Of a stretch of DNA of 33,365 nt, positions 1 through 29,117 are shown one piece after another. Below the pieces are notes generated by a model. It saw only the letters and a list, made by a program, of their open reading frames with translations, was not told the origin of the DNA and did not search any database. A program made the position numbers and the translations under genes. Every line of letters starts with the position of its first letter. The stretch's first letter is position 1. This DNA comes from Candidatus Krumholzibacteriia bacterium. GTDB taxonomy: Bacteria; Krumholzibacteriota; Krumholzibacteriia; LZORAL124-64-63. The DNA is taken from assembly GCA_024762975.1 (NCBI GenBank), contig JANTGJ010000023.1, positions 1 through 33,365 on the forward strand. The letters are read 5' to 3'.

Positions 1-1848
1 GAGTTGCCGACTTTGGCTCGGATGAGCGAAGAAGGGACCTTCCGGCCGCTGGGCACCACCTGGCCGGCGATGTCGCCGGTCGGCTGGTCCACTTTTGCCA
101 CGGGCGTGGATGCCTCCGGTCACAATATTTTCGATTTTCTGTCCCGCGACCAACGGACGCACCTGCCGGTGCTCAGTTCGACGCGGCTGCATCCGGCCCG
201 CGAGCGGCGATGGGGTCCGCTGAAGTTGCCGGACCGCGCACCGCATTTCGAGCTGTTGCGGCGCAGCAAACCTTTCTGGAAAACCTGCTCGGAGCAGGGC
301 CTGGGCAGCACGATCCTGCGCGTTCCGATCACCTTTCCCCCCGACAAGTTCGGCGGCAAGCAGTTGTCGGCGATGTGTGTACCGGATCTGCGGGGAACAC
401 AAGGGACCTTTTCGCACTACACCGAACCCGGTGCGGTACCGACCGTGGAGCGTACGACCGGCGGTGAGCGGCTGGTTCTCCAGTCGGCGGGCGCCGGGAT
501 CTGGACCTCGCACCTGACCGGGCCGGACCGGCCCGACGGCCGGGGTTCGATGACGTTGCCGATTCGGGTGAAGGTCGACGCGGCGGCCCAGCGAGCCGAA
601 TTCGATTTCGACGGCCAGCGTTTTTCGCTGGGCACCGACGAGTACTCCAGCTGGATCACCGTCCAGTTCCGCCAGGGTCGTGCGAAGGCCCACGGGATCT
701 GCAAGGTGCGGGTGACCTCGTTCGAGCCGGGCTTTTCGTTCTACGTCACACCCGTGAACATCGACCCGCGCCAACCGTCGCTGACCATCAGCAATCCGCC
801 GCATTTCGCGATCGCCACGGCGCGGTTGCAGGGACGATTCGCCACCCTCGGTCTGGCCGAGGATACCTGGGCGCTGAACGAGCGGGTCATTGATGAGCAG
901 GCTTTCCTGGAGCAGGCCTACGCGATCCACGACGAACGCGAGGCCCAGTTCTTCCGCGCGCTGGATCGCCAGAGCGACGGAGTCGTCTCCGTGGTCTTCG
1001 ATGCGACCGATCGCATCCAGCACATGTTCTTTCGCTATCTCGATCCCGCGCACCCGGCGAATCGTGGCAAGGATATCGAGCGCCATCGTGATGCGATCCT
1101 GGATCTGTATCGGCGCGCGGACGACCTGGTCGGCCGTACCCTGGAGAAGCTGGGTAGGCGGGATGTACTGCTGGTCATCTCGGATCACGGATTCAAGCAG
1201 TTCCAGCGCGGTGTGAACCTCAATACCTGGTTCCGCGAAAACGGCTATCTCTTCCTCAAGGGTGATTCCGCGGGCGAACCGCTCCGTGCAATTCCGGACG
1301 GAGAGCGGTTCGAGGTGTCGGACATCGACTGGCCGCGCACCAGGGCCTACACCAACGGGCTGGCGGGATTCTACCTCAATGTCCAGGGGCGCGAGCACCA
1401 GGGGTGCGTACCACCGGACCAGGCTCCGGCGTTGGCGGAAGAACTGATCGAACGCCTGCGAGGATTGCCGGATCACGAGCGCGGCAACGAGGCCATCACC
1501 GAACTCTGGCCACGCGAAGAGATCTACCAGGGACCCTACGCGGCCAACGGCCCGGACGTGATCGTGGGATACAAGCCGGGCTACCGCGCCGACTGGGATG
1601 CCGCGGTCGGCGCCGTGGGAGCCCACGCCGTGTCGGACAACACGCGCAGCTGGTCCGGCGACCATTGCATGGATCCGCGGCAGGTACCGGGTGTGATTTT
1701 CTCGACGCGGAAGTTCGCATCACCGAAACCCGAGTTGGTCGATCTGGCGCCGAGCGTATTGGACCTGCTGGGAGTCGCGACACCGAGGCATATGACCGGT
1801 CGAAGCCTTTTCGCTGCCGGGAAATCGCAAGAGGGGGCGAGTGCATGA
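1..1848 (+). CDS. AlkP-superfamily phosphohydrolase/phosphodiesterase (5' end cut by window)
   Basis: The reading frame is open at the first base. The first visible residues (PTLARM) align with 'PNFDRF' about 45 residues into the next gene, so the true start and the first metal-binding Asp lie outside the window. Visible features of the type I phosphodiesterase / COG3379-like alkaline phosphatase superfamily are the nucleophile region 'MSPVGWSTFATG', a D-x3-H ligand pair in 'DATDRIQHMFF', 'SDHGF', and a late 'SGDHCMDP' histidine. Such enzymes are two-metal hydrolases of phosphate mono- or diesters. The substrate cannot be read from the sequence. It is a paralogue of the next gene along its whole length, including a beta-rich insert between the nucleophile and the second metal site. 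Its TGA overlaps the ATG of the next gene (ATGA), which implies translational coupling. It lacks the LGYI tail seen at 6120-6164. Confidence 0.85.
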   Translation, partial: ELPTLARMSEEGTFRPLGTTWPAMSPVGWSTFATGVDASGHNIFDFLSRDQRTHLPVLSSTRLHPARERRWGPLKLPDRAPHFELLRRSKPFWKTCSEQGLGSTILRVPITFPPDKFGGKQLSAMCVPDLRGTQGTFSHYTEPGAVPTVERTTGGERLVLQSAGAGIWTSHLTGPDRPDGRGSMTLPIRVKVDAAAQRAEFDFDGQRFSLGTDEYSSWITVQFRQGRAKAHGICKVRVTSFEPGFSFYVTPVNIDPRQPSLTISNPPHFAIATARLQGRFATLGLAEDTWALNERVIDEQAFLEQAYAIHDEREAQFFRALDRQSDGVVSVVFDATDRIQHMFFRYLDPAHPANRGKDIERHRDAILDLYRRADDLVGRTLEKLGRRDVLLVISDHGFKQFQRGVNLNTWFRENGYLFLKGDSAGEPLRAIPDGERFEVSDIDWPRTRAYTNGLAGFYLNVQGREHQGCVPPDQAPALAEELIERLRGLPDHERGNEAITELWPREEIYQGPYAANGPDVIVGYKPGYRADWDAAVGAVGAHAVSDNTRSWSGDHCMDPRQVPGVIFSTRKFASPKPELVDLAPSVLDLLGVATPRHMTGRSLFAAGKSQEGASA

Positions 1849-3791
1849 CGCGCCGGCTGGTTGTTCTGATGTTACTGGTCGTGATCGCTACGCCGGCTGT
1901 CGCGAGCAAGGTGCTTGTCATCGGATTCGACGGGATGGATCCGATCCTGTTGGAGCAGTATCGCGCCGAAGGACGGATGCCGAATTTCGACCGGTTCCTT
2001 GCGGCCGGGGGGCAGTGGACCGAGTTCGGCACTTCGGTTCCGCCCCAGTCGCCCGTCGCCTGGTCGAATTTCATCACCGGTCGCGACTCGGGCGGGCACG
2101 GCATCTTCGATTTCATTCACCGCGACCCCAAGACGATGCTGCCGTATTCCTCGACCAGTGAAGCGAAATCCGCGACCCGATTCATCGAACTGGGCTCGTG
2201 GAAGATTCCGCGCGGGGGCGGCGGGATCCGCAACCTGCGCCAGGGGACGGCGTTCTGGGAAATCCTGTCCGATGAGGGGATCGACGCCACGATCTTCAAG
2301 GTGCCCTCGAATTTCCCTCCCGTCGAATGCGAAGCACGTTGCCTGTCGGGCATGGGCACGCCTGACCTGACGGGCAACTACGGCATCTCGACCCTGATCA
2401 CGGATGACCCGCCGCTGGAGCGCAATCTGGCCGGAGGACGGATCGAGTCGGTGTGGTTGGACCAGGGGCGATTCGACGCCACGCTGGTCGGCCCGGCCAA
2501 TACCTGGCGCGAAGGTGATCCGGAGGCAACGGTCCCGGTGCATGGCCGTGTCGATCGCGCAGCGAAGACGGTATGGCTCACCGCGGACAAAACGGAACTG
2601 GTTCTGCGCGAGGGCGAGTGGAGCGACTGGGTGTCCCTCGATTTCGAGATGGTGCCGCTGCTGAAGTCGGTGTCGGGAATCTGTCGTTTCTTCCTGATCG
2701 AGACCGGACCGGCGCTGCGGTTGTACGTCACGCCGATCCAGATCGATCCCGAGGATCCCGAAATGCCGATCAGTGTTCCGGGCAACTACAGCCGCAAGAT
2801 CGCCGAGCGGACAGGACCCTACTACACGCAGGGCCTGCCCGAGGATACGAACGCTCTGGAAAACGGATTCCTGACCGACGACCAGTATGTCCAGCAGAGC
2901 AACCTCGTGCTCGAGGAACGCCTGCGGCAGTTGGATGTCGAACTCGATCGTTTCGCGGGCCTGGAAGAAGGCTTCCTGTTCTTCTACTTCAACACGCCGG
3001 ATCAGACCTGCCACATGCACTGGCGCAACATGGACCCGGAGTCGCCCACCTTTGCGACAGCCGACCCGAATCACCGCGACCGCATTCCCGAGATGTACAC
3101 TGCGCTGGACGGAGCACTGGGGCGCGCCCTGGATGTCGTCGGGGACGACGTGGTGGTCATGGTCATGAGCGACCACGGCTTTGCGCCCTGGCACCGGACC
3201 TTCCACACCAACACCTGGTTGCTGGAGAACGGCTACCTGGCCCTGCAGGAGGGCCGCGAACGAGACGATGTCGTGATGCTGACGGGAATCGATTGGACGC
3301 GAACCCGGGCCTACGCGATGGGCATCAACGGATTGTATCTGAACCTGGCGGGCCGTGAACGCGAGGGCATCGTGCAGCCGGGTGCCGAGCAGGAAGCGCT
3401 GTTGGCGGAACTGCAGTCGAAACTGGAAGCCGAACGCGATCCCCTCCTGGGGCAACTGGCGATCAAGCACGCCTACCGCGCCGACGAGACCTATCATGGA
3501 CCGCTGAAGAACTCGGGGCCGGATATCGTGCTGGGATACGCGCGCGGTTGGCGCGGCGGCAACGAATCGGCGATGGGCGAACTGAGCGATTCGGTGTTCT
3601 CGGACAATCTGCTGAAATGGAGCGGCGACCATTGCATCGCCGCGGACGAGGTGCCCGGCATTCTGGTGACGAATCGGCCGATCCTGCGCCGCGACCCGTC
3701 CCTGGTGGATATGGCGCCCACGATTTTGCGTCTGTTCGGGATCAACCCGCCCGAAGATATGGTCGGCGGCTCGGTTTTCGAGCCGCGCTAG
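1845..3791 (+). CDS. Exported AlkP-superfamily phosphohydrolase/phosphodiesterase
   Basis: A 648-residue protein with a clear Sec signal peptide (MTRRLVVLMLLVVIATPAVA), so it is expected in the periplasm or at the cell surface. All superfamily metal and catalytic positions can be placed: D29 in 'VIGFDG', predicted nucleophile S69 in 'QSPVAW', D386 and H390 in 'PDQTCH', D443 and H444 in 'SDHGF', and H596 in 'SGDHC'. Residues about 200-340 form a beta-rich insert shared with the upstream paralogue. Serine replaces the threonine usual in nucleotide pyrophosphatases/phosphodiesterases. The ATG at 1845 is chosen because it overlaps the upstream stop and gives a proper signal peptide; the frame is open further upstream, but only as a shadow of gene 1. 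Role and substrate are unknown. A phosphodiesterase acting on envelope lipids, glycans or nucleotides is possible. Confidence 0.88.
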   Translation: MTRRLVVLMLLVVIATPAVASKVLVIGFDGMDPILLEQYRAEGRMPNFDRFLAAGGQWTEFGTSVPPQSPVAWSNFITGRDSGGHGIFDFIHRDPKTMLPYSSTSEAKSATRFIELGSWKIPRGGGGIRNLRQGTAFWEILSDEGIDATIFKVPSNFPPVECEARCLSGMGTPDLTGNYGISTLITDDPPLERNLAGGRIESVWLDQGRFDATLVGPANTWREGDPEATVPVHGRVDRAAKTVWLTADKTELVLREGEWSDWVSLDFEMVPLLKSVSGICRFFLIETGPALRLYVTPIQIDPEDPEMPISVPGNYSRKIAERTGPYYTQGLPEDTNALENGFLTDDQYVQQSNLVLEERLRQLDVELDRFAGLEEGFLFFYFNTPDQTCHMHWRNMDPESPTFATADPNHRDRIPEMYTALDGALGRALDVVGDDVVVMVMSDHGFAPWHRTFHTNTWLLENGYLALQEGRERDDVVMLTGIDWTRTRAYAMGINGLYLNLAGREREGIVQPGAEQEALLAELQSKLEAERDPLLGQLAIKHAYRADETYHGPLKNSGPDIVLGYARGWRGGNESAMGELSDSVFSDNLLKWSGDHCIAADEVPGILVTNRPILRRDPSLVDMAPTILRLFGINPPEDMVGGSVFEPR

Positions 3792-3803
3792 AAGGAGAGA
3801 ACA

Positions 3804-4004
3804 ATGTTTGGCGGAGGCAACAGGATCAAGGTCGACAAGGACCTGTTGGAAAAAATCAGGAAGTATGCCGCACTGGCCGGCTACTCGACGCCCGAAGAGT
3901 TCGTGAATCACGTGCTGGAGCGCGAGATCGCGAAATTCGAAGAGGGCAGCGACGATGAGGAAGAGATCCGCAAGCGGATGCAGGGGCTGGGTTATATCTC
4001 GTGA
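3804..4004 (+). CDS. Small ribbon-helix-helix-like protein with LGYI tail
   Basis: A 66-residue protein with a Shine-Dalgarno sequence (GGAG) a few bases before the ATG and a stop overlapping the next start (GTGA). Residues 7-45 look like a CopG/ribbon-helix-helix unit: a short strand (RIKVDKDLLEKI), a first helix (LLEKIRKYAALAG), a turn 'YSTPEEF', and a second helix (VNHVLEREIAKF). An acidic linker follows, then the tail 'DEEEIRKRMQGLGYIS'. The tail matches the C-terminus of the phosphohydrolase at 4866-6164 in about ten of fifteen positions. Proteins of this fold are usually dimeric DNA-binding regulators or antitoxins, but no toxin partner is present. It sits between a hydrolase and a membrane protein, so an adaptor or assembly role is equally possible. 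No signal peptide is seen. Confidence 0.75.
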   Translation: MFGGGNRIKVDKDLLEKIRKYAALAGYSTPEEFVNHVLEREIAKFEEGSDDEEEIRKRMQGLGYIS

Positions 4005-4822
4005 ACGCATTGGCGGCAGGCATCGGTCGATTCTTCGACCTGATCATTGGCCCGCTGGCTGACCGGCCGGCGCTGGCCATGGTCGTACTGTCGGTGCTGA
4101 CCGCCGTCTGGTCCTTGCTGCTGTTCAAGGCCACGACCCGTCAGGAACGACTGACGACGGGTCGTGACCGCCTCTTCGGCCATTTGTACGAGATGGGTCT
4201 TTATCAGGACCACCTGAATGTGATGGGGCGGATCCAGCGCGACCTGGCGCTCGCGAACCTGCGCTATCTTTGGTTGACGCTGCCGGCGCTGCTGGCGCTG
4301 ACCGTGCCGATGGTCATCACGTTGGCGCAACTGGACTCACGCTACGCGCACCGGCCGCTGCAGGTGGGTGAGTCGACGGTGTTCGTGGTGCGCGTGCACG
4401 ACAGAGATCGGGCGGCGCTGGCGGACCTGAAACTGGTGGCTCCCGACGGTGTCCGGATCGAGGCAGGGCCGGTGCTCGACCGGCCCGCGGGCGAGGCGGC
4501 CTGGCGACTGAGACTCTCCGCCCCGGGTCCGCATCTGCTCCGGGTCCTGCGGGGCGATGAAATCGTGGCTTCACGCAAGCTGAACGCCAACCATGGATTG
4601 CCGCGCCTGGCTGAAACCCAGGGCGCCACCGGATGGCGGGTTTTGCTGGCACCGGGATCGCTTCCGTTGCCGGCGCAATCACCCGTTGTCGAGACTCGTC
4701 TGCAGCTGCCCGAGCGCAGCGTCCGGTACCTCGGCTTCAAGATGCACTGGCTGCTGGCGTTCATGATCTTCTCGCTGATCGGCGGCTACCTGGTGAAGGA
4801 TCCGTTGCGGGTCTCGATCTGA
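4001..4822 (+). CDS. EMC3/YidC-like (DUF106-like) integral membrane protein
   Basis: A 273-residue protein starting with GTG at 4001, overlapping the stop of the small upstream gene by four bases. Predicted layout: an N-terminal amphipathic stretch (FFDLIIGPLADRP), membrane segment 1 (about 24-43), a charged helical hairpin (about 46-88, TRQERL...RIQRDLALANLRYLW), membrane segment 2 (about 90-110), an extracytoplasmic beta-rich domain (about 111-243), and membrane segment 3 (about 250-266). The segment-hairpin-segment arrangement and the 'PLADRP...KATTRQERL' pattern resemble the EMC3/TMCO1/DUF106 branch of the Oxa1/YidC superfamily, which insert proteins into membranes. The periplasmic insert before the last segment is not typical. 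The assignment rests on topology and a weak motif, so it could instead be an unrelated membrane anchor for the neighbouring hydrolases. Confidence 0.6.
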   Translation: MNALAAGIGRFFDLIIGPLADRPALAMVVLSVLTAVWSLLLFKATTRQERLTTGRDRLFGHLYEMGLYQDHLNVMGRIQRDLALANLRYLWLTLPALLALTVPMVITLAQLDSRYAHRPLQVGESTVFVVRVHDRDRAALADLKLVAPDGVRIEAGPVLDRPAGEAAWRLRLSAPGPHLLRVLRGDEIVASRKLNANHGLPRLAETQGATGWRVLLAPGSLPLPAQSPVVETRLQLPERSVRYLGFKMHWLLAFMIFSLIGGYLVKDPLRVSI

Positions 4823-4865
4823 GTCGTAGTCACTGCTGGAATTCGAAAGGGAACAGGGAACGGAT

Positions 4866-6164
4866 ATGAGATTGTGGAAACGTGGTTTGGCGATCCTGCT
4901 GTTGGCAGCCTCGGCTCTGGTTCTGGTCGGTTGCGGCGGCTCTGAACCGTTGGATCCCGAGGCACGCAAGCTGGTGGTCATCGGCATCGATTCGGCCGAC
5001 TGGCGGCTGCTTGGACCGATGATCGACGACGAGGGGCGCTTGCCGGTAATCGCGAAATTCCGCGAAGAATCGGCGTCCGGCCGGATGAAGACCTTCTACC
5101 CGCTGGAGAAGTCTCCGCTGTTGTGGGCGAGCATTTCCACCGGCGTGATGCCCGAGGTGCACGGTATCCGGAATTTCGTGAAGGGATCCCAGCAGAAGCC
5201 GGTCACGGGCAGCGCCTGGTACGCACCGGCGATCTGGGACATTCTCGGTGCCGCGGGCATGAGCAGCTCGGTGGTCGGCATGTGGACGACCTACCCCGCG
5301 CGCGAAATCGATGGGGTGATGGTCAGTGATTACCTGCCCTACGGTCACGGTCGCGAGAAACCGCTCGAAGGTCTGGTTTGGCCCGACTCGTTGAGCGCCG
5401 AGGTCAACGCCCTGCGGGTGGATCCGGGCTCGTTGACTGACGAGGATCTGGGCCGATTCCTGACACCCGAACAGCTGTCGATCGCCGAGGCCGAATACCC
5501 GACCGAGATGCAGAAACTGCGCGATGTCTATGCGGCGGACCTCGGTTACCTGGCCGTCAACCGGATGTTGGCCCAGCGCTTCGACTTCGACCTGTTCTTC
5601 TACTACCTGCGTGGCCCGGATATGATCAGCCACTACTTCTACCGCTTCCTGAAGCCGCAGGACAGCCGCCTGGTCGTCACGCCCGAGCAGGAGGAAGTCT
5701 TTCACGATGTCGTCAAGAAGTACTACGACTGGGCGGACGAGGTGACCGGCGAAGTGCTGAGCTGGTTTCCGGCCGACCGCCAGGCCGTCATCGTTTCGGA
5801 CCATGGATTCTATGGACCCCGCAAGTCGGGACAGAAGGGGGCGGCAGAGCACAGCGAGTGGGGGATCTTCCTGGTACGCAGTCCGCTGTACCAGCCGGGG
5901 GCGCGTTTCAATCACATCGATCTGATCGACATCTGTCCGACCATGCTGGCGCTGATGGGATTGCCGGCGGCTGCCGACATGCCCGGGCGTGTGCTGCGGG
6001 ACGGGTTGACACCGGACGGGCAGAAGCGTGTGGAAGAGATGGAAAAGAATCGTGTGCCCTCCTATCTCTCCCTGCGCCCTGCCGCGGGGCCGGCCGGCGA
6101 AGTGGATGCCGGTGTGGACGAGGAGATTCGCAAGCAGTTGCGATCCCTGGGGTATATCAACTGA
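4866..6164 (+). CDS. AlkP-superfamily phosphohydrolase lipoprotein with LGYI tail
   Basis: A 432-residue protein with a type II signal peptide: basic N-terminus, hydrophobic core and lipobox LVGC with C23 as the lipidated cysteine. It is therefore predicted to be membrane-anchored on the periplasmic side. Catalytic positions of the alkaline phosphatase superfamily are D42 in 'VIGIDSADW', predicted nucleophile S83 in 'KSPLLW', D252 and H256 in 'PDMISH', D312 and H313 in 'SDHGF', and H329 in 'AEHSEWG'. It lacks the large insert of the two upstream homologues. After the catalytic domain comes a linker rich in Ala/Pro/Gly, then the tail 'DEEIRKQLRSLGYIN', also found on the 66-residue protein at 3804-4004. 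It is the last gene of the cluster, 43 bases after the membrane protein. Substrate unknown. Confidence 0.87.
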   Translation: MRLWKRGLAILLLAASALVLVGCGGSEPLDPEARKLVVIGIDSADWRLLGPMIDDEGRLPVIAKFREESASGRMKTFYPLEKSPLLWASISTGVMPEVHGIRNFVKGSQQKPVTGSAWYAPAIWDILGAAGMSSSVVGMWTTYPAREIDGVMVSDYLPYGHGREKPLEGLVWPDSLSAEVNALRVDPGSLTDEDLGRFLTPEQLSIAEAEYPTEMQKLRDVYAADLGYLAVNRMLAQRFDFDLFFYYLRGPDMISHYFYRFLKPQDSRLVVTPEQEEVFHDVVKKYYDWADEVTGEVLSWFPADRQAVIVSDHGFYGPRKSGQKGAAEHSEWGIFLVRSPLYQPGARFNHIDLIDICPTMLALMGLPAAADMPGRVLRDGLTPDGQKRVEEMEKNRVPSYLSLRPAAGPAGEVDAGVDEEIRKQLRSLGYIN

Positions 6165-6372: not shown

Positions 6373-7473
6373 ATGCGGTCTGTCCGTAACATCTTGTCAT
6401 ATCGCAAGAAACGCCGGTGGCGGATTTCACTTGCCGTGGTGTTGCTGTGCTTGCCGGCACTGGCCTTCGCCGCCCAGGACGCACCCCCGCCGACCTATAT
6501 CCAGTTCTCGATCCAGGACCCAGGTGGCAATTTCTTCCCCCAGGGGGAGATCGAATTCTGTACACCGGGCGGTCGCTGCTTCTACGCCGACATCCAGGAA
6601 GGCTTTCCCGGCAACTTCTATTTGCCGAGCGAGTACCTGCACGCCGATACCCTCTACACCGTGATGATCTACGATCAACAGGTGAAGGTGCTGTGGGAAA
6701 TGCGCGATTGGCGTTTCGAGCCCGAGGACTACGACGCCCAGTGGAACCGCTGGCTGGGTGTCCACAAATTCCTGATCTTTCCTCGCTTCTTCGTGAAGGA
6801 AGACGGGTCGATGAGCTTCGAGGTCGAGACCACCCTGAACCCGGAATGGGAACGGTTGATGGGGCTGGCGAACGCCTATGCCGGTCCCGATACCCTGCCC
6901 GATTTTCCCGAGCTGCTCTGGACCACGGACGGCCTGGTGCCGCTGGGCGGTAATTTCCGGTCCGGTCCCGACAAGGCCGCCGGAGTGACCGGAGTCAGCC
7001 CCGGGTACGGCGCTTCGCTGCTGCGCCGCTTTGGCTATCCGCAGCACGAACTGACACGGGACTCGTGGGCCTCGTTCCGCGAAATCGGTGGGGGTTATGC
7101 CCGTAACCGCTACGACACCGACAGTGCGATGGCTCCGGGTCGCGCCAGCGACGTCGTGCTGCACCGGCTCTGGATCAGCGTTGGCTATGGCCGCATCACG
7201 CAATCGATGAGAACGCACTGGAGCGTCTCCTTGGCCGCCGGCCACGCCGCCGTGCGAGACGGGGGCAAGGTGCTCGAGTATCGCGGCCGCAGCTACCGGA
7301 TGTGGGGCGGCGGCGTGCAGGTGCGATGGGTGCGCGGCTTGTGGAGTACCGATCGTGCCGACATCGGGGTGATCGGTCGATTCGATGCGATGCACTGGTT
7401 CGCCGATGCGGCGGAGAACGATCACTGGTACGGTTGGGAGCCGTCCGTGCTGGTCGGATTGGTGGTGTACTGA
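6373..7473 (+). CDS. Exported beta-rich protein, probable small outer-membrane barrel
   Basis: A 366-residue protein of no recognised family. The ATG at 6373 is chosen because it follows a GGGAG ribosome-binding site and gives a basic N-terminus plus hydrophobic signal ending in 'PALAFA|AQD'; the frame is open upstream but without such signals. Residues about 30-200 form a soluble domain with two cysteines in 'CTPGGRC' and aromatic-rich segments. Residues about 235-366 show alternating hydrophobic strands (VLHRLWISVGYGRI, YRMWGGGVQVRW, WEPSVLVGLVVY) and end in an aromatic residue, as outer-membrane barrels do. The stop (TGA 7471-7473) overlaps the ATG of the Calx-beta protein by one base, so the two are probably coupled. 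It could be an anchor or export partner for that protein, which is inference from position alone. Confidence 0.65.
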   Translation: MRSVRNILSYRKKRRWRISLAVVLLCLPALAFAAQDAPPPTYIQFSIQDPGGNFFPQGEIEFCTPGGRCFYADIQEGFPGNFYLPSEYLHADTLYTVMIYDQQVKVLWEMRDWRFEPEDYDAQWNRWLGVHKFLIFPRFFVKEDGSMSFEVETTLNPEWERLMGLANAYAGPDTLPDFPELLWTTDGLVPLGGNFRSGPDKAAGVTGVSPGYGASLLRRFGYPQHELTRDSWASFREIGGGYARNRYDTDSAMAPGRASDVVLHRLWISVGYGRITQSMRTHWSVSLAAGHAAVRDGGKVLEYRGRSYRMWGGGVQVRWVRGLWSTDRADIGVIGRFDAMHWFADAAENDHWYGWEPSVLVGLVVY

Positions 7474-10400
7474 TGGGCGCGCGCAGGCTGTTGTGGAACC
7501 GTTTCTACTGTGGACCGGCCGCCCTGATCGCGCTGGCGCTGGCCGGCGTGTTGGCCTGGACCGGTGGCTGCGATCGCGAGGACAACGACTGGGGCGCCTT
7601 CGATCCGGAACAGCGCGAACTCGTCGTGCTGGCCGATACGTTGCGCGTCTCGGAAGGCGGCGCCGAGGCGACTTTCCGTGTTGCGCTGCGCATGGTGCCC
7701 GAAGATACGGTCACGGTGCTGATCCGGCCGCAGTCCGACCAGATCGTGGCCGAACCCGACTCCCTGGTATTGGTGCCCGTGCTGGACCAGTGGGCGGGCG
7801 AGCGCCGCATCGTCGTACGGGCGTTGGACGACCAACGCGCCGAGGGACCGCATTCCGAGTGGATCGACGTCCACGCTTTTTCCCGTGACCCGGCCTACAA
7901 CGGCCAGGGCGGCGACGGGCTGGTGCCGGTTCTGATAGCGGATGATGATCAGGCGGGCGTTTCCGTGAACGAGACCCTGCTGACGCTGGTCGAATCGCTT
8001 GCCGGAACCGTCAACCAGACCTACGAGGTGGCCCTGCTGAGCGAGCCCGCCGATACGGTGCGGATCGCGATCGCATCGACCCCGATCGAGCCGACACTGC
8101 ATATCGAGCCTGCCGAGTTGGTGTTCTCGCCGGCGAACTGGGATACGGTGCAGCGGGTGACCCTGTGGGCAGAGATGGACGAGGTCGACGGTGACGATCT
8201 GGATCTGCAGATCGGTCACGTAGCCTCCAGCTCGGATCCGGACTATGACGCGCAGATGCAGATCGCCGATGTGCGCCTATTGGTTCTGGACAGCACACTG
8301 TCGCCCGTCGGCCGGCTCGAGTTCGTACTCGATGACGACCACACGCTGCACGAGAACGATGCCGCGCAGACGGTACGGGTCGTCATCACCCTCAGTCGGC
8401 CGAGTACCGAGAACGTGGTGGTGCATCTGTCGACGGTGAACGGTTCGGCGGTCGGCGGCCAGGATTTCGAGGTGTTGGACGAAGATATCACCTTCGCTCC
8501 CGGCGAAGCGCTGGTGCAGACGCGCGAAATCAACGTAGTGAATGATGATATTCTCGAATTCCCCGAACAGTTCGAGGTCGCGATCACGCCGGTCGAGAAT
8601 CTCTTCGTCGGCGAACTGGATCGACTGACCCTGGATATCGACGACGACGACACGACGCCGTTGACGATGACCGTCACCGACGCGGAGGAGGACTCCGGGG
8701 CGGCGGAATTCATTGTCTCGATGCCGACGACCCAGATGGTACCCATCTCTTTCCGCTTCGTCACCGAGGGGGGAACCGCCCTGCAGGGCAACGACTACGA
8801 GGCGCTGGACGAAGAATTCGTGATCGAGCAGGGGCAGACGCACCAGATCGTTCCGGTCGTGTTGCTGGCCGATCCCGACCACGAACCGGACGAGGATTTC
8901 ACCGCGCGGTTGGTCGATCTCTCGCGACACGCGACCTGGAGCCAGGCGCCGGTGGCCTGCACGATCCTGAACGACGATCCGCAGACGGTCACGCTGACCG
9001 GCGGCGACTACGAAGAGAGCGACAGCCACGCCATCTTCACCGTCAGGACCGAAGCACCGTACAACGAGGATGTCTCGCTGCTGCTGAACGCCCTGTCCGG
9101 TGATGGCCTGGGGAATATCGGCGACCAGGAGGATGCCGAGGCGGGTTCCGATTTCGGCGCGATGGTCGGCGCGTTGATCGCTCTGCCGGCCGGTGAAACC
9201 GAAATGCAGGTTCGCGTGCCGATCCTGCAGGATCCGTACGCCGAACGTCTGCAGGAGTACTTCCGCCTCGAGATCGCCGGTGCCGATCAGGACGGGTTTG
9301 CCGGGCTGATCGCCACGGCTTCGATTCGGGACGATGACCAGCCCTGCCTGCAGGTGGACGACCTGCTGGTCGACGAAAGCGACGGTACGGCCAACTTCCG
9401 CGTCGAGGTCATCGACGGCAGCGGGGCGTTGACGACCAGCACGGCGGATATCGTTTTCGATGCCTTTACCATGGACCAGACGGCGGAGGCGGGTCAGGAC
9501 TACGAGGCGTACGCTTCCACTCTGACGATCAACGCCGGCCAAAGCGGTCTGGACATTCCGGTCACGCTGCTGGATGACGGCCAGGATGACGACAGCGAGT
9601 CCTTTGTTCTCGTCCTCGGGCCTCCGGAAAACGCGACCGGCGCCTGCCGCGACGAAAACGCCTTCTGCCGCATCGCGGACGACGAATACCCATCGCTGAA
9701 CCTTTATGCCGTTGCCGCGGACCGTTACAACGAAGGCTCGGTGTATGAATACGTGGCACGAATCAGTACACCGCGTCAGGAGCCGACGACGTTCATCATG
9801 AATCTCTCGGCCGGCTCCTCCAACGGCCAGGGTGTGGACTACGATTTCGCGGAAAACGGACTGCAGACGATCCTGCCGGGCGATACCGAGATGCATTTCT
9901 CGGCGTCGTTCCTGGATGACCAGCTTGCCGGCGAGTTGGACGAAACTCTCGATATCAGCGTGGGGGGCGCGAATGTCGCACTCGGTATCTATCAGATTCA
10001 GGCCGTGATCATCGACGCGCCGGAGCTGAGCATCACCGGCGATGCGGTCAACGAGGGGGAGACGGCGCACTTCACCGTCACCCTGGATGCGACCTCGACC
10101 GCCGATGTGCAATTCCTGGTGCAATACGCCAGCGATACGGCCACAGCGGGTTCGGATTTCTCGAACACCAACGTCGGTCCGTTCACGATTCCCGCCGGTT
10201 CGCTTTCCGCGGACGTGGCGGTTCCTGTCACCGCCGGAGACGGTGGCGATGCCTCGGTCGAGTATTTTGTCGCGACCCTGATCACACCGACCAACGCCAC
10301 GCTCAGCCCGTTCAACAGTGCCATCGGTACGATCTACGATATGGATCCGCCCGAGCTGCGGTGGGACGGCCCCGCCTCGGCCGTCGAGGGCACCGATGTC

Positions 10401-11018
10401 GAGTTGCTGGTCCGATTGAGTTGGCCCAGCGAAGTGGACGTCGAGTTCGAGGTGAGCTTCACCGACGGTACGGCGGCGCGTTCGGGCATCGACTACGACG
10501 ACTCGAATACCGGTCCCTACACCGTTGCGGCGGGGATGACCAGTTTCATCGTACCGGTGCCTACGGTGGCCGACGGACTGCCCGAACTGGCGAGTGAAGA
10601 CTTTACCGTCACCCTCCACTCGCCCGTCGAGGCCGTTCTGGGTACGCCCGTGATCGCGACCGGCAACGTGCTGGACGCCGATCAGCCCGAGTTGTCGATT
10701 CCGGTCGACGAGACCACGACCGAGGGCGGCGACCTGTTCTTCACCGTGCATCTGAGCCAGGCGACAATCGTGCCTGTGTTCTTCGGTCTGGAGTACGATG
10801 TCGGATCAACGCAGGGCCCGACGGACTTCGACGCCTCGAACACCGGCCCGTTCTCGATGATGCCGGGGACCACGGATACGACCATCACCGTGATCACCTT
10901 CGACGACACGGACTTTGAGAATCAGGAGGCCTTCATCGTGCGGATCGCATCCGATCCGACCAACGCGGTCGTGGGTGATCCGTTCGAGGCGACCGGTACG
11001 ATCGACGACAACGATTGA
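7473..11018 (+). CDS. Large exported Calx-beta repeat protein
   Basis: An 1181-residue protein built of about ten repeats of roughly 110 residues resembling Calx-beta domains. They carry the recurring 'G..Y....G.......G.....I.V...DD..E..E.F.V.L' pattern and end in acidic 'DDD' or 'DND' turns typical of Ca2+ binding. Approximate repeat limits are 45-150, 150-270, 277-396, 396-501, 506-621, 623-740, 740-848, 850-957, 960-1070 and 1071-1181. The last three share a close 'DF..SNTGPF...PG' block and look recently duplicated. The N-terminus is a signal sequence ending in 'AWTGGCDRE', possibly an atypical lipobox with C33. Such proteins are usually surface adhesins or scaffold proteins. No C-terminal sorting or anchor domain is present. 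It is translationally linked to the upstream exported protein and followed by a terminator. Confidence 0.85.
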   Translation: MGARRLLWNRFYCGPAALIALALAGVLAWTGGCDREDNDWGAFDPEQRELVVLADTLRVSEGGAEATFRVALRMVPEDTVTVLIRPQSDQIVAEPDSLVLVPVLDQWAGERRIVVRALDDQRAEGPHSEWIDVHAFSRDPAYNGQGGDGLVPVLIADDDQAGVSVNETLLTLVESLAGTVNQTYEVALLSEPADTVRIAIASTPIEPTLHIEPAELVFSPANWDTVQRVTLWAEMDEVDGDDLDLQIGHVASSSDPDYDAQMQIADVRLLVLDSTLSPVGRLEFVLDDDHTLHENDAAQTVRVVITLSRPSTENVVVHLSTVNGSAVGGQDFEVLDEDITFAPGEALVQTREINVVNDDILEFPEQFEVAITPVENLFVGELDRLTLDIDDDDTTPLTMTVTDAEEDSGAAEFIVSMPTTQMVPISFRFVTEGGTALQGNDYEALDEEFVIEQGQTHQIVPVVLLADPDHEPDEDFTARLVDLSRHATWSQAPVACTILNDDPQTVTLTGGDYEESDSHAIFTVRTEAPYNEDVSLLLNALSGDGLGNIGDQEDAEAGSDFGAMVGALIALPAGETEMQVRVPILQDPYAERLQEYFRLEIAGADQDGFAGLIATASIRDDDQPCLQVDDLLVDESDGTANFRVEVIDGSGALTTSTADIVFDAFTMDQTAEAGQDYEAYASTLTINAGQSGLDIPVTLLDDGQDDDSESFVLVLGPPENATGACRDENAFCRIADDEYPSLNLYAVAADRYNEGSVYEYVARISTPRQEPTTFIMNLSAGSSNGQGVDYDFAENGLQTILPGDTEMHFSASFLDDQLAGELDETLDISVGGANVALGIYQIQAVIIDAPELSITGDAVNEGETAHFTVTLDATSTADVQFLVQYASDTATAGSDFSNTNVGPFTIPAGSLSADVAVPVTAGDGGDASVEYFVATLITPTNATLSPFNSAIGTIYDMDPPELRWDGPASAVEGTDVELLVRLSWPSEVDVEFEVSFTDGTAARSGIDYDDSNTGPYTVAAGMTSFIVPVPTVADGLPELASEDFTVTLHSPVEAVLGTPVIATGNVLDADQPELSIPVDETTTEGGDLFFTVHLSQATIVPVFFGLEYDVGSTQGPTDFDASNTGPFSMMPGTTDTTITVITFDDTDFENQEAFIVRIASDPTNAVVGDPFEATGTIDDND

Positions 11019-15612: not shown

Positions 15613-16029
15613 TCAGAGGGAAGCGGTCCGTGACAGCTCGGCGTACTTCACACCCTTCTGTCCCCCGATTTCGACACTCATGCGCGTGATCTCGTCGGGT
15701 CGGCCCCGGAGAATGATCGTTTCGAGGCAATTGTCATGGTCGAGGTGCACGTGGGTGGTGCACAGGATGTGGATGAACTCGTTGTGCTGGATGCGATGCA
15801 GACGGTCGGTCAGTCCTCGCCGGTGGTGGTCGTAGCAGATCGTCAGCACACCGACGACTTCCTCCTCGCCGCGGTTCCAGGTCTCTTCGACCAATTGCGC
15901 CCGGATCAGGTCGCGCACCAGTTCCGAGCGCGAAGCGTAGCCGCGATCGGTGAAGCGGCGATCCAGTTCGTTCAGCAGGGAGGCCGGCAGCGAAACACTG
16001 AAGCGGATCGTCTCTGCGTTCTTCTTCAT
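15613..16029 (-). CDS. nikR: Nickel-responsive transcriptional regulator NikR
   Basis: A 138-residue protein, the usual NikR length. Residues 7-48 form the ribbon-helix-helix DNA-binding domain (IRFSVSLPASLLNELDRRF...SRSELVRDLIR). Residues 58-135 form the ACT-like metal-binding domain. Aligned with E. coli NikR, the high-affinity nickel ligands are all present: H82 (E. coli H76), H93 and H95 in 'THVHLDH' (H87, H89), and C101 (C95). NikR represses nickel-uptake genes when loaded with nickel. It is the last gene of the operon it is predicted to control, three bases after nikO, so autoregulation through the operator at 20146-20172 is expected. The strong motif match makes the identification secure. 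Confidence 0.95.
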   Translation of the reverse strand: MKKNAETIRFSVSLPASLLNELDRRFTDRGYASRSELVRDLIRAQLVEETWNRGEEEVVGVLTICYDHHRRGLTDRLHRIQHNEFIHILCTTHVHLDHDNCLETIILRGRPDEITRMSVEIGGQKGVKYAELSRTASL

Positions 16030-16032
16030 GGC

Positions 16033-16809
16033 TCAATCCCAGTCGTGGGTGTGGTAGTGGCGATGCGTCACTTCGCCGCTGCGATGAACATGGTCGTGGA
16101 TGTGCACCAGATTCGCGCGCGTGAGCAGCTCCATGTCGTCGCGCAGCGCGAGCACATCGCCGTCGTAGAGCAGCGTATGGTCTTCGCCCAGCAACAGGCA
16201 GCGGGTGCCCAGCTCACTGGCCAGGCTCAGGTTGTGCGAACTGGTGATCACGGTGGCGTCCAGGCCGCGCAAGAAGTCGACGAGCCAGCCGGTGCTCCGT
16301 GGATCGAGGCTGGAGGTCGGCTCGTCCAGCAGCAGCAGATCGGGTTCGAGAGCCAGCAGCAGAGCCAGGCAGACGCGTTGCTTTTCGCCGTTGCTGAGTG
16401 CGTGGGGCGAGCGGTCCAGCAACTTCCCGACACGCAGTTCGCCGGCCCAGAATTCGACGCTGGCGTCGACCTCCTTGCGCCCGAAGTGTCGCGGACCGAA
16501 AGCCAGCTCGTCGCGTACCGTCGAGTGGAAGAGCATCGCGTCGGGATTCTGGAAAAGCAGTCCGCAACGGCGCCGCACCTCGCGCCGCCAGGCGGCATCG
16601 CCGCTCATGCCGGACAGGTCGCGGCCCCAGAGGGAGACGCTGCCGCGGTCCGGTTCGATCAGTCCGTTCAGAATCTTCAACAGGGTGGATTTGCCACTGC
16701 CGTTGCAGCCCAGCAATGCGATTTTCTGGCCCGGTTCCACGGAGAACGAGATCTCGCGCAGCGCCTGGATCCCCTCGTGGTCATGGCTCAGTTCTTCAAC
16801 CTTGATCAA
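16033..16809 (-). CDS. nikO: Nickel ECF transporter ATP-binding protein NikO (CbiO-like)
   Basis: A 258-residue ABC ATPase of the energy-coupling-factor type that drives nickel import. Motifs: Walker A GCNGSGKST (34-42), Q-loop Q87 in 'LLFQNPD', signature LSNGE (138-142), Walker B with D162 and E163 in 'LLLLDEP', and H-loop H192. The 'FQNPD..LF..TV..ELAFGP' stretch is typical of CbiO/EcfA. The C-terminus is unusual: eight histidines lie in the last 23 residues (HIHDHVH...THRHYHTHD), a likely metal-binding or sensing tail. The start overlaps the end of nikQ by 14 bases. The choice of nickel over cobalt rests on the linked nikR, nikK and nikL. Confidence 0.92.
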   Translation of the reverse strand: MIKVEELSHDHEGIQALREISFSVEPGQKIALLGCNGSGKSTLLKILNGLIEPDRGSVSLWGRDLSGMSGDAAWRREVRRRCGLLFQNPDAMLFHSTVRDELAFGPRHFGRKEVDASVEFWAGELRVGKLLDRSPHALSNGEKQRVCLALLLALEPDLLLLDEPTSSLDPRSTGWLVDFLRGLDATVITSSHNLSLASELGTRCLLLGEDHTLLYDGDVLALRDDMELLTRANLVHIHDHVHRSGEVTHRHYHTHDWD

Positions 16810-26830: not shown

Positions 26831-27292
26831 ATGACAATCGATCTGAAGAAAGTGGACGCCATCGTGGCGGCCAAGGGCACCCAGTCCCAGTACGCAATCC
26901 CCGTACTGCAGGGCGTCCAGGAAGAATTCCGTTACGTTCCGCGCGAGGCCATCGAGCGGATCGCCGAACTCACCGAGATGACCGAGTCCCAACTCTATGG
27001 GGTGGCCACGTTCTATTCGCAGTTCCGGCTCCAGCCGGTCGGCGAGAAGATCATCAAGGTCTGCCACGGTACGGCTTGCCACGTGGGGGGAGCCGAAGGT
27101 TTGACCGAGGCTCTCGAGGCAAGGCTCGGCGTCAAGAGCGGCGAGAACACCGAGGACATGAAGTACACGCTCGACTCCGTCGCCTGTGTGGGGTGCTGTT
27201 CCCTGGCTCCGGTCGTCATGGTGGACGATCTGACCTTCGGCCGGCTCGACCGCAAGAAGGCTGCCAAGATCATCGACGACTTAGAGGGTTAA
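26831..27292 (+). CDS. NuoE-like [2Fe-2S] subunit of an NADH-dependent redox complex
   Basis: A 153-residue protein of the 24-kDa NuoE/HydC family: an N-terminal helical part (YAIPVLQGVQEEFRYVPREAI, split as YAIPVLQGVQEE and FRYVPREAI; 'QLYGVATFYSQF') and a thioredoxin-like domain with the [2Fe-2S] ligands C78 and C83 ('VCHGTACHVGGA') and C119 with C122/C123 ('CVGCCSLAPVVMV'). GGTGGAG gives a good ribosome-binding site. In complexes of this type the subunit binds a small iron-sulfur cluster next to the NuoF-like flavin subunit, encoded 16 bases downstream. No other complex I genes are nearby, so it belongs to a soluble enzyme rather than respiratory complex I. Confidence 0.92.
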   Translation: MTIDLKKVDAIVAAKGTQSQYAIPVLQGVQEEFRYVPREAIERIAELTEMTESQLYGVATFYSQFRLQPVGEKIIKVCHGTACHVGGAEGLTEALEARLGVKSGENTEDMKYTLDSVACVGCCSLAPVVMVDDLTFGRLDRKKAAKIIDDLEG

Positions 27293-27308
27293 CCCGAGGA
27301 GGATTGCG

Positions 27309-29090
27309 GTGCAGGCAGCAGACAAGAAAACCCGGAAGCAAATCGTCGTCGGGATGAGCACATGCAACATCGCCGCCGGCAGCCAGGACGTTTTCGACCT
27401 GGTGCAGGAGCGCGTGGACGCGGGCCTGGATGCCGACGTCAAGATCACCGGCTGTTTCGGCATGTGTTTTTCCGAGCCGCAGGTCCAGGTGATCGACGAG
27501 GACGGCACCACCCATCTCTACAGCGGTGTCAGCAAAGCCCGGATCAAGAAGATCCTGGACCAGCACGTCGAGGGCGGTGAACCGGTCGACAAGTGGGAGA
27601 ACCACTTTGCCGAGGGTGAGGACCTCGCGTTGATGGGCAAGCAGAAACGCATTGTCCTGAGAAATTGCGGTGTCATCGATCCCGAGTCGTTGGACGAGTA
27701 TCTCGCCGTCGACGGGTACCAGGCACTGGAAAAGGTCCTGAAGGAGCAGACTCCCGAAGAGGTCATCGCCACGGTGACCGAAGCCGGGTTGCGTGGCCGC
27801 GGCGGCGCCGGTTTTCCCACCGGCCTGAAGTGGAAATTCACGCACGGCTACGAGAACGACAAGAAGTACGTGATCTGCAACGCCGACGAAGGCGATCCCG
27901 GTGCCTTCATGGACCGGGCCACGCTCGAAAGCGACCCGCACGCGGTGCTCGAGGGGATGGCCATTGGCGGATTCGCCACGGGGGCGGACGAAGCCTATGT
28001 CTATTGCCGGGCCGAGTACCCGATGGCCATCGAGCGTCTGAACAAGGCCATCGCCGACGCCGAGGCGAGGAATCTGCTGGGCGAGAACATCATGGGTACC
28101 GGCTTCAACTTCAGTATCCACGTCAAGGAGGGCGCCGGTGCGTTCGTCTGCGGTGAGGAAACGGCACTGCTGATTTCCATCGAGGGTCAGCGCGGTATGC
28201 CGCGGGTGCGGCCGCCGTTCCCGGCCGAGAGCGGATTGTTCGGCAAACCGACGACGATCAACAATGTCGAGACCTGGGCCAACGTGCCCTGGATCATCCG
28301 CAACGGCGCCGAAGCCTACGCGGCCAACGGCACCGAAAAGAGCAAGGGTACGAAGGTTTTCGCCCTGGCCGGCAAGATCAAGCACGGGGGCCTGGTCGAG
28401 GTGCCGATGGGCATCACCCTGGACGAGGTCGTCCACGAAATCGGAGGCGGAACGGGCACCAAGCGGGAAGTGAAGGCCGTGCAGATGGGCGGTCCGTCCG
28501 GCGGCTGTGTCCCCCGCACCCTGTTCGATACGCACGTCGACTACGACGAGGTCAACAAGACCGGCGCGATCATGGGCTCGGGCGGCATGGTGGTCATGGA
28601 CGAAACGACCTGCATGGTCGACGTGGCCCGCTATTTCCTGACGTTCACGCGGGCGGAGTCGTGCGGCAAGTGCACCTTCTGCCGGGTCGGGACCACCCGG
28701 ATGCTCGAGATCCTCGAGCGGATCTGTGCCGGCGACGGAAAGCCGGAAGACATTCCGCTGCTGGAGGATCTGGCCGAGCAGATCAAGAACACCAGTCTGT
28801 GCGGTCTGGGCCAGACGGCTCCCAACCCGGTCCTGACCACGCTGCGCTATTTCCGGGAAGAATACGAAGAGCACATCCACGACAAGAAATGCCGTGCCGG
28901 AAAGTGCCGTAACCTGTGCAAGTACGAGATCACCGAGGATTGCACCGGTTGCACGGTCTGCGCCATCAACTGTCCCGTCGATGCCATCACGGGCGCCAAA
29001 AAGGAACTCCACATCATCGACCCCGAGGTCTGCATCAGCTGCGGCGTGTGCCGTGAGGTGTGCAACTTCGAGTCGGTGAAGGTCATTTGA
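27309..29090 (+). CDS. NuoF/HydB-like flavoprotein subunit with extra iron-sulfur domains
   Basis: A 593-residue protein with a GTG start (GAGGA six bases before). Domains in order: a thioredoxin-like [2Fe-2S] domain (about 8-90; C19, C49, C53 in 'MSTCNIAAG' and 'GCFGMCF'); the NuoF core (about 110-440) with FMN/NADH-binding 'GLRGRGGAGFPTGLKW' (160-175) and 'NADEGDPGAFMDR' (191-203); a [4Fe-4S] site 'ESCGKCTFCRVGT' (C452, C455, C458, plus C498); and a C-terminal two-cluster ferredoxin domain (C545, C548, C551, C555; C575, C578, C581, C585). This is the architecture of HydB-type subunits of NAD-dependent, often electron-bifurcating, hydrogenases and formate dehydrogenases. Here the partner is a GltD-like protein. 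It is the likely NADH-oxidising or -reducing subunit. Confidence 0.92.
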   Translation: MQAADKKTRKQIVVGMSTCNIAAGSQDVFDLVQERVDAGLDADVKITGCFGMCFSEPQVQVIDEDGTTHLYSGVSKARIKKILDQHVEGGEPVDKWENHFAEGEDLALMGKQKRIVLRNCGVIDPESLDEYLAVDGYQALEKVLKEQTPEEVIATVTEAGLRGRGGAGFPTGLKWKFTHGYENDKKYVICNADEGDPGAFMDRATLESDPHAVLEGMAIGGFATGADEAYVYCRAEYPMAIERLNKAIADAEARNLLGENIMGTGFNFSIHVKEGAGAFVCGEETALLISIEGQRGMPRVRPPFPAESGLFGKPTTINNVETWANVPWIIRNGAEAYAANGTEKSKGTKVFALAGKIKHGGLVEVPMGITLDEVVHEIGGGTGTKREVKAVQMGGPSGGCVPRTLFDTHVDYDEVNKTGAIMGSGGMVVMDETTCMVDVARYFLTFTRAESCGKCTFCRVGTTRMLEILERICAGDGKPEDIPLLEDLAEQIKNTSLCGLGQTAPNPVLTTLRYFREEYEEHIHDKKCRAGKCRNLCKYEITEDCTGCTVCAINCPVDAITGAKKELHIIDPEVCISCGVCREVCNFESVKVI

Positions 29091-29117
29091 TCCGGGCAGG
29101 AGCGAAAGGGTTCGACT

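Follow-up and report, generated by a model that had tools for sequence, protein, structure and literature searches.

Membrane proteins of the Oxa1 superfamily (including MJ0480, EMC3, TMCO1 and YidC) have in common three transmembrane (TM) helices and a cytoplasmic hairpin, MJ0480 being an archaeal YidC (PMC8675477). The DUF106 proteins are described in PMC8887752, and lipid scrambling by members of the Oxa1 family has been seen both in vitro and in simulations (PMC10491306). Here we describe an operon at the start of contig JANTGJ010000023.1 (the window, a stretch of 33,365 nucleotides that is one whole contig, G000:C23, of Krumholzibacteriota), in which a membrane protein (Mem) remotely resembling this superfamily is encoded together with three enzymes of the alkaline phosphatase (AlkP) superfamily (HydA, HydB and HydC) and a small ribbon-helix-helix (RHH) protein (Rhh). 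Four of the genes form an all-or-none unit in the phylum, and Rhh and HydC end in a short tail, RLxxLGYI, that is also carried by many sulfatases and by sulfate-activation enzymes of related clusters. No system of this composition was found in the literature searched (without most subscription papers), and we know of none that can be named. The protein families are known and, as far as that literature shows, their combination as a system is new.

Positions 1-6164 of the forward strand are taken up by the five genes, in the order HydA, HydB, Rhh, Mem, HydC, with the following features:

1..1848, forward strand: HydA, AlkP-superfamily enzyme (PF01663), 5' end missing at the contig edge (open reading frame (ORF), Pfam match, invariant residues).
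1845..3791, forward strand: HydB, a HydA paralogue with a Sec-type signal peptide, predicted periplasmic (ORF, Pfam match, alignment).
3804..4004, forward strand: Rhh, RHH protein of 66 amino acids (aa) without signal peptide (AlphaFold2 (AF2) model, Foldseek, weak RHH-family matches).
3957..4001, forward strand: C-terminal tail of Rhh, EEEIRKRMQGLGYIS, predicted helical (near-invariant in 19 family members).
4001..4822, forward strand: Mem, three-TM protein with a cytoplasmic helical hairpin and a periplasmic Ig-like domain (AF2 model, PDB profile search, shuffle control).
4067..4339, forward strand: TM1, cytoplasmic hairpin and TM2 of Mem, approximately residues 23-113, inside the part aligned to MJ0480 8-117 (AF2 model, profile alignment).
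4355..4600, forward strand: periplasmic Ig-like (filamin-like) domain of Mem, inserted between TM2 and TM3 (Pfam, AF2 model, Foldseek).
4739..4816, forward strand: TM3 of Mem, residues 247-272, colinear with MJ0480 172-197 (profile alignment; W250 invariant).
4866..6164, forward strand: HydC, AlkP-superfamily lipoprotein (lipobox LVGC), accessory member (Pfam match, alignment).
6117..6161, forward strand: C-terminal tail of HydC, ending VDEEIRKQLRSLGYIN (Q424, L425, S427, L428, G429 and Y430 invariant in 19 homologues).

The tight packing reported in the initial annotation is present in all five ORFs: HydA and HydB overlap by 4 bases (ATGA), HydB and Rhh are 12 bp apart, Rhh and Mem overlap by 4 bases (GTGA), and 43 bp separate Mem from HydC. 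In contigs with a relative of Mem, the order HydA-HydB-Rhh-Mem-HydC is kept at approximately 46-86% identity (some contigs cut members off), and members were found in this order at 10 independent loci. In a survey of 80 Krumholzibacteriota genomes, divided into families f1 to f8 with the window in f1, Mem and Rhh are each present in 38, both in 37 and neither in 41 (Fisher p=1.6e-20, relatedness not corrected for), and the two mismatches, G037 and G077, each with only one of the pair, are contig edges. This co-conservation rules out a chance grouping. Outside f1 the Rhh-Mem pair is present in four genomes (one in f5, one in f7 and two in f8) and otherwise absent save for the G077 edge; in one genome, G027 (67% complete), the unit may stem from misbinning or a transfer. 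HydB orthologues occur only where Rhh and Mem do, contig-edge cases aside, while HydA-like genes are also found without the rest of the unit in G014 and in f4. Since HydC adjoins the unit only in part of f1 and is elsewhere in that family inverted or missing, the conserved core is the four genes HydA-HydB-Rhh-Mem. The genes thus pass the check named in the initial annotation, conservation together in relatives, with HydC as an accessory member. Mem relatives in genome contigs, where the source is named, come from Candidatus Krumholzibacteriota or Krumholzibacteriia. Second HydB-like copies (56% identity) lie outside the operon at G045:C234:23670-25547 and G042:C385:3578-5155, and a HydB/HydA-like gene with an in-frame TAG (G056:C344) is perhaps a decaying copy or an assembly error.

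The three hydrolases match PF01663 (phosphodiesterase/nucleotide pyrophosphatase type) with 86 (HydA), 111.5 (HydB) and 71.6 bits (HydC) against a cut-off of 23, and HydB is approximately 35% identical to HydA. Each has an invariant two-metal site with serine at the nucleophile position, consisting of D29, S69, D386, H390, D443, H444 and H596 in HydB and of D42, S83, D252, H256, D312, H313 and H329 in HydC. In HydA, S25, D337, H341, D395, H396 and H555 are invariant; the first Asp is missing here at the contig edge and present in relatives, which completes the set of seven metal and nucleophile residues. Assignment as formylglycine sulfatases was rejected, the C/S-x-P/A-x-R motif being absent and the sites reading SPVGW, SPVAW and SPLLW. 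No close solved relative of the hydrolases was found; there are weak matches only, to iPGM, NPP and phosphonoacetate hydrolase, and HydA and HydB differ from the PF01663 type in a large middle insertion.

Full-length HydA relatives begin with a signal-like helix, AYIGPGAGF and a hydrophobic TM helix, followed directly by a WPxRxxxRxxRGRGRRK-type segment. Because this Arg/Lys-rich segment comes right after the TM helix, the positive-inside rule predicts that HydA is membrane-anchored with its enzyme domain facing the cytoplasm. HydB and HydC are probably exported, as judged from the signal peptide of the former and the lipobox of the latter, and the two large paralogues would thus lie on opposite membrane faces. 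The initial annotation of two large paralogues, one with a Sec signal and one truncated at its start, and one lipoprotein, all two-metal AlkP-type phosphohydrolases, agrees with these data; it overlooked the opposite sidedness of HydA and HydB, the link to sulfate activation and the common C-terminal tail. In G014, a membrane AlkP-like gene (L131, 8470-10527, reverse strand) starts with GYIDPSAGF, a variant of YIGPGAGF, and adjoins a gene (6655-8439, forward strand) ending in RTTGYIH, a variant of LGYI.

The AF2 model of Mem (11 sequences; mean predicted local distance difference test (pLDDT) 79) starts with an N-terminal helix and TM1, continues through a cytoplasmic helical hairpin to TM2 and a beta domain, and closes with a final TM helix. 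The model and family hydropathy together indicate the Oxa1-type elements, a three-TM core with a cytoplasmic hairpin, in a topology that is predicted. The beta domain is Ig/filamin-like by Pfam and Foldseek, and the top Foldseek matches of Mem are mostly Ig-like domains. A PDB profile search from 11 close Mem relatives gave nothing useful. The profile of 21 diverse Mem proteins, searched against 177,635 PDB sequences, retrieved MJ0480 (5c8j) at E=0.013, the next match being at E=9.2. The alignment runs from the N-terminal helix through TM1 and the hairpin to TM2, and in a second, weak segment the TM3 helices of the two proteins pair in order. None of 2993 locally shuffled MJ0480 pieces reached the real score (best shuffle 10.7 versus 15.4), and hhalign of Mem against MJ0480 gave P=4.7e-4 with a probability of just 32%. 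Mem is therefore probably a remote relative of the MJ0480/DUF106 group. Plain membership of PF01956 (EMC3_TMCO1) is not supported, this family having no match above the Pfam threshold in Mem, 21 relatives or the genome. Mem is not a YidC (PF02096) either, since the Pfam test failed and hhalign could not align it with YidC proteins from the phylum itself. The EMC3/YidC-like label of the initial annotation can thus be kept as a remote, specific tie through MJ0480 and not as family membership. Unlike members of the superfamily, Mem is a bacterial protein encoded in addition to a separate canonical YidC in the same genome, has an extra periplasmic Ig-like domain and lies inside an enzyme operon, and we concluded that it is better described as working like Oxa1/DUF106 than as a formal member.

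Rhh was modelled by AF2 from 19 relatives (pLDDT 85.6) with helices at residues 12-25 and 30-45 and a tail helix at 52-62. The best Foldseek match is NikR (probability 0.99, root-mean-square deviation 1.1 Å over 42 aa), followed by CopG, MazE9, omega, FitA and Arc, and Pfam RHH_1 gives weak matches in 8 of the 19 family members (best E=0.0084) and none for the window copy. The models soundly support an RHH fold, in keeping with the earlier description of a small RHH-like protein. Rhh differs from proteins of the CopG-NikR type in its fixed operon place by AlkP genes and in its C-terminal tail (EEIRKRMQGLGYIS), which is common with enzymes and is among the most conserved parts of the protein.

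The RLxxLGYI tail ends Rhh, HydC, the CysC of related clusters and many AlkP enzymes and sulfatases, and is lacking in HydA, HydB and two extra AlkPs of f7/f8. In the genome of the window, the pattern LxxLGY(I/L/V)x-stop occurs three times, in Rhh, HydC and one apparent chance match, and in G074 it occurs 15 times versus 3 for the reversed pattern. In a tally by family (67 of the 80 genomes; 13 low-count f5 genomes left out), tail and reversed pattern were counted 134 versus 70 times in f1, 33 versus 4 in f4 and 54 versus 17 in f8; an excess is seen only in these families and the single f7 genome, and none in f2, f3, f5 and f6. Ten tailed ORFs were sampled from other loci, and each is a PF00884 sulfatase. 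The tail of the cluster CysC is not an ordinary end of adenosine 5'-phosphosulfate (APS) kinase, because the kinase domain match stops at residue 173 of 200, approximately 27 residues earlier, and the tail is missing from those other APS kinases of the phylum that were inspected. CysD ends may naturally resemble it (GYM/GYF), and CysD proteins therefore count as weak support.

In f7, f8 and G027, the unit is directly preceded by an AlkP gene, the APS kinase gene (CysC) and another AlkP gene, in some also by ATP sulfurylase (Sat), and, where the contig reaches, by a second tailed RHH gene. In G014, CysD/CysN and AlkP genes with the tail adjoin the HydA-like gene. A link between sulfate activation and these AlkP genes thus recurs. 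Further genes upstream of the f7/f8 cluster (loci L138, L140, L141 and L143) are a LPG_synthase_TM (PF03706) gene and genes that by eye resemble DnaK and ThrS.

Beyond the phylum, the searches took in plasmids and viral contigs, along with a single genome-contig scan. HydB-like AlkP enzymes that have no signal peptide are encoded on haloarchaeal plasmids, and many of these enzymes lie inside clusters of glycosyltransferase, epimerase and deacetylase genes that also contain sulfatase genes. Thirteen haloarchaeal AlkPs carry the tail in cis (e.g. VEDRLKGLGYME). Three Halorussus AlkPs lack it and have directly upstream a gene for a RHH-like protein of 72-76 aa ending in VVEDRLEQLGYLEK, and the same pair is present, by position, on three further Halorussus plasmids. 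The association between lack of a cis tail and a RHH neighbour has a Fisher p of 0.012 (13/3/2, in an AlkP-selected set, relatedness uncorrected). Tailed RHH-like genes also adjoin genes for sulfatases lacking the tail in Haloprofundus, Halorussus limi and Haladaptatus (loci found through the RHH gene); the RHH identity of the archaeal proteins is suggested by weak Pfam matches for one member and the look of the sequences. The tail is found at the ends of three sulfatases, an AlkP, a CysD-like protein and a protein of 290 aa encoded in a single Halopiger cluster. The haloarchaeal clusters differ from the operon in that the plasmid collection yielded no Mem homologue and the enzymes are without signal peptides; viral contigs yielded no relatives. 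Two of the Halorussus RHH-AlkP loci (L204 and L208) lie near a gene annotated as phosphosulfolactate synthase, another sulfur-linked neighbour.

The reading that we favour, at somewhat less than even confidence, is that the operon encodes an inner-membrane complex for phospho- or sulfo-ester chemistry on an envelope lipid or glycan. Such a complex would cleave or transfer the phosphate or sulfate esters of a lipid or lipid-linked glycan in the envelope, with HydA acting on the cytoplasmic face, HydB on the periplasmic face, and Mem as membrane scaffold and possibly as a route for lipid or substrate. Rhh would be a cytosolic dimer displaying two copies of a docking tail, giving in trans what HydC and many sulfatases have in cis, and so tethering tail-less enzymes, and in related families also the tailed APS kinase, to the complex. 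Of this picture, the gene set, its co-conservation, the folds or families, the active sites and the occurrence of the tail on several proteins are observed, and the membrane sides of HydA and HydB, the class of substrate, the complex and the adaptor role are deduced. The interpretation given in the initial annotation is partly supported, and its idea of an envelope-processing module fits the haloarchaeal polysaccharide clusters. Several points weigh against the proposal. Proteins with an RHH fold mostly act as DNA-binding regulators. The tail is found on cytosolic as well as exported proteins, so one partner could not serve all of them unless present on both sides of the membrane. Sulfate-activation genes are not in the cluster in f1, the window included, so the tie to sulfate may not hold here. 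Two haloarchaeal AlkPs have neither tail nor RHH neighbour, and the cis/trans counts come from related haloarchaea, with some loci picked via the RHH gene.

Among the alternatives, it is unlikely, though worth serious consideration, that Rhh represses its own operon by binding DNA, as NikR or CopG do theirs, with the tail as an effector or stability element and no adaptor function. The closeness of its fold to NikR, CopG and antitoxin RHH domains and the basic residues kept in its strand (KIK pattern) agree with such a role, whereas the position of the gene between HydB and Mem in every family, neither first nor divergent, the inclusion of the tail in the most conserved part of Rhh, and the presence of the same tail on APS kinase, CysD-like proteins and AlkP enzymes, none of them DNA-binding, do not. 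The proposal of the initial annotation, by which Mem would serve as a dedicated insertase or assembly factor for HydA and other envelope enzymes and be an Oxa1 protein of DUF106 type in a bacterium, draws on the relationship to MJ0480 and on the co-encoded membrane protein HydA; we consider it rather improbable, because the genome already has a canonical YidC, the simple N-terminal anchor of HydA should need no private insertase, and the Ig-like domain suggests a periplasmic partner. For Mem itself, a role as scramblase or scaffold is no less plausible than one as assembly factor. Nutrient scavenging, in which exported AlkP enzymes free phosphate or sulfate from organic esters, would suit the predicted export of HydB and HydC and the sulfate-activation genes beside some relatives; it appears quite improbable given the predicted cytoplasmic face of HydA, the lack of an uptake transporter in the conserved unit and the placing of haloarchaeal relatives in biosynthetic polysaccharide clusters.

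Elsewhere in the window, a very long ORF that resembles a lipoprotein and seems to contain many Calx-beta-like repeats lies downstream of the operon (approximately 7480-11018, forward strand). A NikR-like RHH regulator (138 aa) adjoining an ABC-transporter ATPase (15613-16809, reverse strand; read by eye) probably belongs to a nickel/cobalt uptake system, and three genes at 26831-31208 (forward strand) resemble NuoE, NuoF and iron-sulfur subunits of an NADH-linked hydrogenase or dehydrogenase.

More broadly, and still more tentatively than for the complex itself, RLxxLGYI might be a general docking tag of bacterial and archaeal phospho- and sulfo-ester enzymes in glycan or lipid pathways of the envelope, carried in cis by some AlkPs, sulfatases and CysC/CysD-like proteins and supplied in trans by RHH dimers to tail-less AlkPs. 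In Krumholzibacteriota, this arrangement would centre on a membrane protein of DUF106 type that bridges two AlkP paralogues facing opposite sides. If true, a bacterial relative of the archaeal and endoplasmic reticulum DUF106-EMC3 group would be at work in a defined enzyme operon, and a short tag would connect proteins that belong to a single pathway without being related, in two domains of life, making partners predictable from sequence. It would also offer a way into the use of COG3379-type AlkP enzymes in making sulfated or phosphorylated surface polymers.

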